This document shows positions 3,582 to 6,292 of a stretch of DNA of 54,610 nt, one piece after another. Position numbers and translations under genes: made by a program. Each line of letters opens with the position of its first letter. Positions within the stretch are counted from its first letter, which is position 1. This DNA comes from Pantanalinema sp. (GTDB lineage Bacteria > Cyanobacteriota > Sericytochromatia > S15B-MN24 > UBA4093). The stretch is taken from contig DATNQI010000087.1 of the NCBI GenBank assembly GCA_036704125.1, positions 1 to 54,610 of the forward strand. The letters are read 5' to 3'. A model generated the notes under the pieces. It saw only the letters and a program-made list of their open reading frames with translations. It had not been told where the DNA came from and did no database searches.

Positions 3582-4778
3582 TTATCGAAGGGTGACGTCG
3601 CCGCTGATGGTCGAGCAGGTGAGCGCGGCGGTGCCGCTGTGGAGCTTGCCCTTGATGTGGCGCTTGGCGAAGATGGTCTCGCTCAGGTCCAGCTTCATCT
3701 CCAGGTCGCCCGAGCGGGTCGAGGCGTCCACGTAGCCCATCGAGCCGGGCAAGAGGCGCACGTCGATGTCGCCCGAGGTGGTGCTCGCGCTCATGGCGAA
3801 GGCGGCCTCGAGCTCGGCCTCGATGTCGCCGCTGATGCTCTTGAGCTTGATGTCGCCCGACAGCTTGCCGTCCAGGTCGATGTCGCCGCTGACGGTGCTC
3901 GCGCTGCCCGAGAGCCAGGCCTTGCGCAGGACGATGTCGCCGCTGATGGCCCGGGCGTCCATGTGGCCGGCGCAGTCGGTGGCGGTAAGCTCGCCGCTGA
4001 CGGTGTTGAGCGAGAGGTTGCCCTCGATCCCCTGGGTCTGGATGTCCCCCGAGACGGTCTTGAGGTTGCCGTGGCCCGAGAAGCGCAGGCCGTCGGCGTA
4101 CAGGTCGCCGCTGATGCTCGCGGCCTGGGGGACCAGGTGGCGGGGCAGGCGGCATTCGAAGTCGTAGCGGTGGCGCATCATCAGGGCGCCGATGGGGTGG
4201 CTCTGAGAGAGCGAGGCCGGGGGCGTGAGCTTCAGCTGGGCGCCCTCGCGCCGCAGCGAGACGGGGTGCTCGGCGAAGAAGGCCTGGGCGGCCTCGACGG
4301 TGGCACCCGGGATGTGCGCCACCACCTTGACGGCCACGTCCTCGCGGTCCTCGCCGATCAGCCGGATGGTGCCGTGGGTGTTCTGCACGTCGAAGCCCGC
4401 AAGGTCCGCCGTCTCGTTGAATTCGAGGGTCTCTTCGAAGGTGTGGGTGGGCTGCAGGTGGCTCTCGATCATGCCGAGGCCCTGGTTGAGCAGCCCCGAC
4501 AGGACGTCGACCACCCGGCTGACGCCCTTGCCCACCTTGGGCAGGTGCTCGGTGGCGATCTGCTCGGGAAGGCGATCGAGGACCTTGTTGACCTGCTCGA
4601 AGGCCGGGGCCAGCTGGTGGGCGATGGACATGGGCGCCTCGGGCGCGGCGGAAGAAGTGCTCGCAGGCTGTGCGGCGGGCGCGGACTGGCCGAGGGCGGC
4701 AAGCAAGGTCGCCGCCTCGGTGGCGTTGATCTTGCCCTCCTCGAGCATGGTCAGGACCTTCATGCGTTCGTCGTTCAT
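3582..4778 (-). CDS. DUF4097 (YvlB-like) beta-repeat protein
   Basis: This 398-residue protein starts with a short helical motif (MNDERMKVLTMLEEGKINAT, then EAATLLAAL) of the YvlB/SHOCT-like type. An Ala/Pro/Ser-rich linker follows to about residue 50, then a central domain. The C-terminal half has many repeats centred on T(V/I)SGDI, as in the DUF4097 adhesin-like beta-helix. There is no signal peptide or membrane helix, so it is probably cytoplasmic. Its start lies in an ATGA overlap with the DUF2089 gene. YvlB relatives in Firmicutes lie next to envelope-stress regulators, so an envelope-stress role is plausible but unproven. The open frame extends further upstream, but that part is the shadow of the DUF2089 gene. 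Confidence 0.85.
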   Translation of the reverse strand: MNDERMKVLTMLEEGKINATEAATLLAALGQSAPAAQPASTSSAAPEAPMSIAHQLAPAFEQVNKVLDRLPEQIATEHLPKVGKGVSRVVDVLSGLLNQGLGMIESHLQPTHTFEETLEFNETADLAGFDVQNTHGTIRLIGEDREDVAVKVVAHIPGATVEAAQAFFAEHPVSLRREGAQLKLTPPASLSQSHPIGALMMRHRYDFECRLPRHLVPQAASISGDLYADGLRFSGHGNLKTVSGDIQTQGIEGNLSLNTVSGELTATDCAGHMDARAISGDIVLRKAWLSGSASTVSGDIDLDGKLSGDIKLKSISGDIEAELEAAFAMSASTTSGDIDVRLLPGSMGYVDASTRSGDLEMKLDLSETIFAKRHIKGKLHSGTAALTCSTISGDVTLR

Positions 4779-5158
4779 GGATTCAAATCCTCTAGCTTCG
4801 CGATCGCCTCGGCCGCGCTGAGCTCCCCGCGCTCCAAGGAGGCGAGGATCTCGGAACGATTCGGCGAAGCGCTCGGGGGGGTGGTCGGAGTGGTGCGCCC
4901 GAGGGCCTCGATGGCGCTCTCCAGGCGGTTGCGGACGGTGGGGTAGCTGACCCCGAGGGCCTTCTCGACCTCGCGGATGTTGCCGCGGCAGGTGACGAAG
5001 GTGACGATGAACTCCTGCAGGTCCGAGGGGAGCTGGGCCAGGAGGGGCAGGCCGAACGTGCCGCGGATGCTGGTGTCGCAGCCGGGGCAGGCCAGCTCGG
5101 TCACGCGCAGGGCGTCGGAGCACACGGGACAGCGGGAAGGGAACTGGTTCAATTTCAT
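4775..5158 (-). CDS. DUF2089 family zinc-ribbon/HTH regulator
   Basis: This 127-residue probable transcription regulator has an N-terminal zinc ribbon with two CxxC pairs (CPVC at 10-13, CPGC at 24-27). A helix-turn-helix region follows (about 60-88, including GNIREVEKALGVSYPTVRNR). It ends with a helix (about 100-125, ILASLERGELSAAEAIAKL) that resembles the start of the DUF4097 protein encoded next. The two genes overlap by ATGA, so the proteins are made together. The ATG lies inside a perfect 15-bp inverted repeat and has no Shine-Dalgarno sequence. A promoter predicts transcription starting at the ATG itself, so the mRNA is probably leaderless and may be autoregulated. Confidence 0.85.
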   Translation of the reverse strand: MKLNQFPSRCPVCSDALRVTELACPGCDTSIRGTFGLPLLAQLPSDLQEFIVTFVTCRGNIREVEKALGVSYPTVRNRLESAIEALGRTTPTTPPSASPNRSEILASLERGELSAAEAIAKLEDLNP

Positions 5159-5186
5159 GCTTGAGAATTTAAAGCATGAAATTGAA
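5148..5186. repeat. Perfect 15-bp inverted repeat over the DUF2089 start codon
   Basis: The arms 5148-5162 and 5172-5186 are exact reverse complements (TTCAATTTCATGCTT type) with a nine-base spacer. The right arm lies in the -10/-35 spacer of the operon promoter, and the left arm covers the ATG and first codons. It could be an operator for the DUF2089 HTH protein or, less likely if the mRNA is leaderless, an RNA hairpin. Confidence 0.85.
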
Positions 5187-5194
5187 AAAGTAAA
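5166..5194 (-). promoter_or_regulatory. Promoter of the DUF2089-DUF4097 operon (predicted leaderless)
   Basis: On the minus strand TTTACT (5194-5189), a 17-base spacer and TAAATT (5171-5166) form a standard promoter. The expected transcription start, seven bases after the -10, is the A of the DUF2089 ATG at 5158. Confidence 0.6.
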
Positions 5195-5214
5195 GACCCG
5201 TGATCGATCGCAGC

Positions 5215-5252
5215 AAAAAGCAGGGGCGCCGATGACGGCGCCCCTGCTTTTT
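5215..5252 (-). terminator. Intrinsic terminator of the dgt-dnaG-rpoD operon
   Basis: Two 16-base perfect arms (5215-5230 and 5237-5252) enclose a six-base loop, and the stem carries A5/T5 at its base. It lies 12 bases after the rpoD stop and separates it from the DUF2089 promoter. Confidence 0.9.
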
Positions 5253-5263
5253 CGGGAAGTAGC

Positions 5264-6292
<1,029 letters not shown>

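Follow-up and report, generated by a model that had tools for sequence, protein, structure and literature searches.

Within the window (the whole 54,610-nt stretch of DNA that was analysed), a gene for a DUF2089 protein lies downstream of rpoD and immediately ahead of a gene for a DUF4097/Toastrack protein, all three on the minus strand. The features of the locus are:

3582–4781, minus strand: DUF4097/Toastrack protein, 399 aa, with a SHOCT-like N-terminus (Pfam PF13349, PF22746)
4775–5158, minus strand: DUF2089 protein, 127 aa (Pfam PF22747 and PF09862 over cut-off, PF22746 sub-threshold; AlphaFold)
5148–5186, no strand: perfect palindrome, 15-bp arms and 9-nt spacer, centred on pair B of the array listed further below (repeat search and shuffles)
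5166–5171, minus strand: −10 element TAAATT (sequence)
5189–5194, minus strand: −35 element TTTACT (sequence), whose TTTA (5191–5194) is half-site 1 of the array
5215–5252, minus strand: hairpin with 17-bp arms between rpoD and DUF2089 (inverted repeat)
5264–6292, minus strand: rpoD, the upstream neighbour on the same strand (profile search)

The preliminary description of this DNA had read the DUF2089 product as a zinc-ribbon/HTH protein, and the Pfam matches agree, as the N-terminal zinc ribbon (PF22747, residues 10–38) scores 47.1 bits against a gathering score of 27.6 and the HTH (PF09862, residues 43–87, recognition helix at about 72–85) scores 72.8 bits against 33.4. The SHOCT-like C-terminus (residues 100–126) gives a sub-threshold Pfam match of 16.8 bits. 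An AlphaFold model (mean pLDDT 89) contains the ribbon, a three-helix HTH and a two-helix C-terminus, and the YPT at the start of the recognition helix is invariant or nearly so among DUF2089 proteins, which fits a conserved half-site. Searching solved structures with the DUF2089 sequence returned no relative, and a fold search with the model gave only HTH matches, with Z at most 7.5 and the families tied.

The partner matches PF13349 (Toastrack) with 69.6 bits, and its first codon shares an ATGA with the stop codon of DUF2089 (5'-CCATGAAC-3'), a four-base overlap at the place where translational coupling had been proposed. The helical motif that had been noticed in both proteins turns out to be the known SHOCT-like domain: profiles of the DUF2089 C-terminus and the DUF4097 N-terminus align with hhalign at 96.6% (E 4.8e-10), the partner set for this profile having been picked by a SHOCT-like regular expression, and BLAST between the two short SHOCT-like stretches gave no alignment. 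In the nearest DUF2089 orthologue (L002, from the same order, with 39% identity over 118 residues) the next gene also encodes a Toastrack protein and overlaps as ATGA, and a Toastrack partner stands beside DUF2089 in others too. Two Bdellovibrionia loci (L033 3408–4292 and L163 1791–2729) have pentapeptide repeats in place of Toastrack after DUF2089, one beta-helix swapped for another behind the same regulator, and the SHOCT-like N-terminus is present on the pentapeptide partner in one of the two cases tested (L033). That the SHOCT-like part is kept without Toastrack points to it as the shared link.

The hairpin at 5215–5252 is likely the rpoD terminator. Downstream of the pair lies a cytochrome c gene, and none of LiaI-LiaF-TM, PspC or PspA was found among the near neighbours scanned (rpoD, cytochrome c and an EamA transporter). 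The sister genus (G001) has rpoD in the same setting, 90% identical and with dnaG alongside, and no DUF2089 gene was found in its genome; the pair was therefore acquired or lost after the divergence of the two genera. Across one sampled phylum, DUF2089 exceeds the cut-off in 97 of 151 genomes.

The promoter and its palindrome

Read on the minus strand, the DUF2089 promoter consists of the −35 element, a 17-bp spacer, the −10 element, 7 nt and the ATG at 5158–5156, with the two elements and their spacing as in the preliminary description. Both hexamers are weak (4/6 and 4/6, below the 9/12 threshold of our promoter scan), and a motif search found no Shine-Dalgarno motif before the start, in agreement with the earlier observation. 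The perfect 15-bp arms that had been reported around the −10 element and over the ATG are likewise exact (TTCAATTTCATGCTT, 5148–5162, and AAGCATGAAATTGAA, 5172–5186, with 9 nt between) and can be extended to 20 nt at 90% match. They exceed what shuffling produces, the longest perfect arm in 3000 dinucleotide shuffles of the 80-bp promoter being 11 compared with the 15 observed. The 39-bp palindrome pattern occurs, with up to three mismatches, at a single location in the 3.5-Mb genome, and a shorter palindrome pattern has a single match within the window.

If the palindrome were the operator itself, it should be conserved upstream of orthologues. There, however, the 15-bp arms are not kept as sequence; what is kept is the spacing of the half-sites. 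The nearest orthologue has a palindrome of its own, centred between pairs instead of on one, and with the arms absent from orthologues we rejected the 15-bp palindrome as the conserved operator unit. Judged from the sequence, the window palindrome is the symmetric part of an array around the second pair, takes in the half-sites on either side of that pair, and has extra matching bases that orthologues lack.

It is also conceivable that the palindrome acts in RNA, with rpoD read-through transcripts folding so as to hide the start codon. A read-through transcript (window 5120–5214) has a folding energy of −30.9 kcal/mol (z −6.0), and its ATG is part of a stem, but a leaderless transcript, which is without one arm, folds no better than chance, and the contrast between unconserved arms and conserved spacing counts against this explanation as well. 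We consider it improbable as an account of the element; an RNA fold may act in addition to an operator.

Half-site spacing across DUF2089 promoters

DUF2089 genes were gathered from the window's order and class and from whole-genome searches around further groups, these being the classes, orders or phyla around spirochaete, Oscillospirales, Anaerolineae, Armatimonadetes and Bdellovibrionia genomes, with labels that are those of the centre genomes. This yielded a first set of 89 distinct upstream regions (plus-strand loci) and a held-out set of 44 (minus-strand loci).

In the first set TTRA is followed by a second TTRA exactly 9 bp away in 53 of the 89 regions (5.8 in shuffles) and by TYAA at exactly the same distance in 46 (4.9 expected). 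Further spacing peaks stand at 12/13, 21/22, 30/31 and 40 bp with little between, and thus the pair is repeated every 21–22 bp. Among oriented pairs TTRA-N5-TYAA and direct arrangements predominate, and the outward TCAA..TTGA is rare, which fits an inverted repeat. The 9-bp pair is found in 65% of DUF2089 promoters versus 4% of 140 other upstream regions from the same loci (81% versus 4% when controls are AT-matched), and a four-half-site array in 21/89 promoters versus 0/140 control regions and 0.03 in shuffles. The held-out set gives the same picture, with the pair in 14 of 44 regions (2.4 expected, maximum 7 in 100 shuffles) and the four-half-site array in 6 (0.01 expected). Masking every TTGAC leaves the 9-bp signal in place (50/89 versus 7.6 expected), and after clustering at 60% identity the pair is present in 34 of 44 clusters. 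The −35 TTGA is itself one of the half-sites, with a partner downstream at +9 in 22 of 54 promoters and at −9 in none, and some promoters (L090, L070, L012, L017) carry six perfect half-sites. Each half-site is only four bases long and could by itself arise by chance in an AT-rich promoter, but for the array as a whole such an origin is contradicted by the shuffles, the control genes and the held-out loci, and we regard it as extremely improbable.

The window carries five half-sites, all on the minus strand and assigned by array geometry (offsets from the first in brackets):

5191–5194: half-site 1, TTTA (0), within the −35 element
5182–5185: half-site 2, TCAA (+9), completing pair A, TTTACTTTTTCAA
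5170–5173: half-site 3, TTTA (+21), overlapping the −10 element
5161–5164: half-site 4, TCAA (+30), completing pair B, TTTAAATTCTCAA
5149–5152: half-site 5, TTGA (+42), in codons 3–4

This array scores 18/20, the top value in the 54 kb on both strands (P about 1e-4). Half-sites 1 and 3 are each one base away from TTRA. A genome pattern relaxed to TTDA in the first half, which was written with the window sequence known, is matched without mismatch nowhere else in the 3.5 Mb. Relative to the ATG the half-sites lie at −36, −27, −15, −6 and +7 in the window and at −47, −35, −26, −14 and −5 in L002; from the −35 half-site on the two share their register within one base, and the array of L002 extends one half-site further upstream. 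When the window's own genome was searched with the pattern for a regulon beyond the DUF2089 promoter, the best match had one mismatch and the two-mismatch sites were unconvincing. The one-mismatch copy (L171 1501–1534; G000:C37:48145–48178) lies at the end of a contig, with an unrelated ORF about 225 bp further downstream, and is possibly a second site or a chance match.

The repeats might instead serve another regulator of the FNR/CRP type, or reflect a general AT-binding or UP-element effect, as the regions are AT-rich and TTGAT..ATCAA looks like an FNR half-site. In an FNR box TTGA and TCAA have to be 10 bp apart. Yet the first set is enriched at 9 bp with 10 bp near background, and the window pairs are spaced by 9 bp, none of them having TTGA and TCAA 10 bp apart from start to start. 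In addition, a general factor would be expected to have further sites, whereas the genome contains a single copy of the array and the 140 other regions contain none, and the AT-matched comparison given above argues in the same direction. Use of the repeats by such a factor is therefore very improbable.

About one region in three of the first set, and two in three of the held-out set, have no such pair, mostly in GC-rich clades. Spacings of 8 and 10 bp occur in some promoters and are raised in the GC-richer clades of the held-out set. A subgroup from the phylum of G061 (L136, L142, L147, L148, L150, L151) has TTGATTTTTTGAA at −35 and half-sites 8 bp apart, not 9, a spacing that is clade-specific.

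In several DUF2089 variants (L067–L075, L158, L160) the zinc ribbon cysteines are missing, but the HTH and the operator pairs are retained; the next gene in most of them codes for a small membrane-type protein, and the one tested (L070) gave no Pfam match. Since the pair is kept in 11/11 members of one cluster of such zinc-ribbon-less variants, the HTH is the likely reader of the array.

In AT-rich genomes, genes for leucine-heptad proteins produce the same geometry within their coding sequence, so only non-coding matches to the array count. An array count over 148 spirochaete genomes was accordingly discarded as evidence, being dominated by apparent coding leucine heptads. In a spirochaete relative, a tandem 21-base repeat (TTGAACAGGTTGATAAACGAT; G174:C119:1171–1267) mimics the array and probably codes for leucine heptads.

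Taken from these upstream regions, the conserved putative operator unit is the TTRA-N5-TYAA pair repeated with a 21–22-bp period, and it crosses phyla.

Probable leaderless start and proposed autoregulation

A TTGAC lies 34–38 nt before the start codon in 11 of the 133 upstream regions, ten of which have no Shine-Dalgarno motif, and these leaderless-type promoters (L079, L080, L099, L101, L102, L103, L129, L132, L137, L163 and L002) are drawn from five of the sampled groups. The remaining TTGAC motifs within about 80 nt stand at least 46 nt before the start, with one exception at 27 and none at 39–45. Other DUF2089 genes have a normal leader with a Shine-Dalgarno motif. With its TTTAC at 36 nt and no Shine-Dalgarno motif, the window promoter falls into the short-distance class. 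As about 26 of 37 likely window genes (a rough gene set) are preceded by a Shine-Dalgarno motif, the DUF2089 start is not the genome default. The leaderless reading in the preliminary description thus gains strong comparative support from the recurrence of the 34–38-nt class in orthologues, among which leaderless expression appears to recur, and the anatomy of the window promoter gives good reason to expect a leaderless DUF2089 mRNA.

The conserved repeats sit on the regulator's own promoter in the first set, against controls, in the held-out set and with TTGAC masked. This is strong comparative support for the autoregulatory operator suggested earlier, with the conserved array rather than the 15-bp palindrome as its unit. 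We propose that the element is probably the operator through which DUF2089 regulates both its own expression and that of the coupled DUF4097 gene. Binding of the array by DUF2089 dimers is very likely from its anatomy, and we infer that one dimer would occupy each pair through its two HTHs. As 21 bp is two helical turns, the dimers would all lie on the same face of the DNA, and side by side over the −35 element, the −10 element and the start they would exclude RNA polymerase, resulting in negative autoregulation. Transcription would begin at or beside the A of the ATG, giving the leaderless mRNA.

DUF2089 might alternatively bind the array and activate, or activate at low and repress at high occupancy in the manner of restriction-modification controller proteins. 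Many orthologues with a leader have an array that includes the −35 element and reaches upstream of it, which is compatible with activation, and C proteins can both activate and repress through a box that lies within their own promoter (PMC4824078). However, in the window and L002 the array covers the −10 element and the region of the start, and protein bound there would be expected to keep polymerase out. We think activation unlikely here, and repression remains the outcome that the anatomy makes probable in the window's genome.

The least certain step of the proposed autoregulation is that the Toastrack partner would relieve or tune repression on an envelope signal via the common SHOCT-like domain; that the partner acts through SHOCT-like contacts is a tentative prediction from the anatomy. 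More speculative still, DUF2089 proteins could be pan-phylum self-regulating envelope-stress switches, in which the HTH reads the −35 core TTGA as a half-site, in effect competing with sigma region 4 for the same bases, and an assembly along the DNA with a two-turn period is tuned by the SHOCT-like partner. Through the cross-phylum spacing rule DUF2089, a domain of unknown function, becomes a regulator for which an operator can be predicted, and its regulon, its leaderless expression and its link to Toastrack stress proteins come within reach of direct tests.

Comparison with known systems

The model of the DUF2089 HTH (residues 36–90) matches NarL/LuxR-type regulators (LiaR, VraR, NarL) and sigma region 4 with Z of about 6.4–7.5. 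These scores are tied and below 8, and therefore indicate only a shared HTH arrangement and no closer family; unlike those proteins, DUF2089 has no receiver or sigma domains. NarL 7-2-7 sites also space their half-sites 9 bp apart.

The gene pair itself resembles the neighbourhoods in the accessible sections of Ravi et al. 2024 (PMC11237479), where DUF2089-Toastrack domains and gene neighbourhoods with a predicted PSP/Lia-like membrane stress output are described, in that a DUF2089 protein with zinc ribbon, HTH and SHOCT-like parts stands beside a Toastrack gene. An operator, autoregulation and a leaderless start, which are proposed here, were not found in those sections, nor was a DUF2089 binding site, operator or DNA-binding test found in the accessible portions of the literature searched on DUF2089. 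Next downstream of the pair comes cytochrome c, and LiaI-LiaF-TM or PspC was not identified among the neighbours scanned.

The organization is also like that of C proteins (PMC4824078), which are small HTH regulators with paired inverted repeats in their own promoter, often with a leaderless mRNA and a coupled downstream gene. DUF2089 differs from them in belonging to an unrelated family and in its half-site and downstream function, and also in that its −35 element is itself a half-site and its pairs recur every 21–22 bp.
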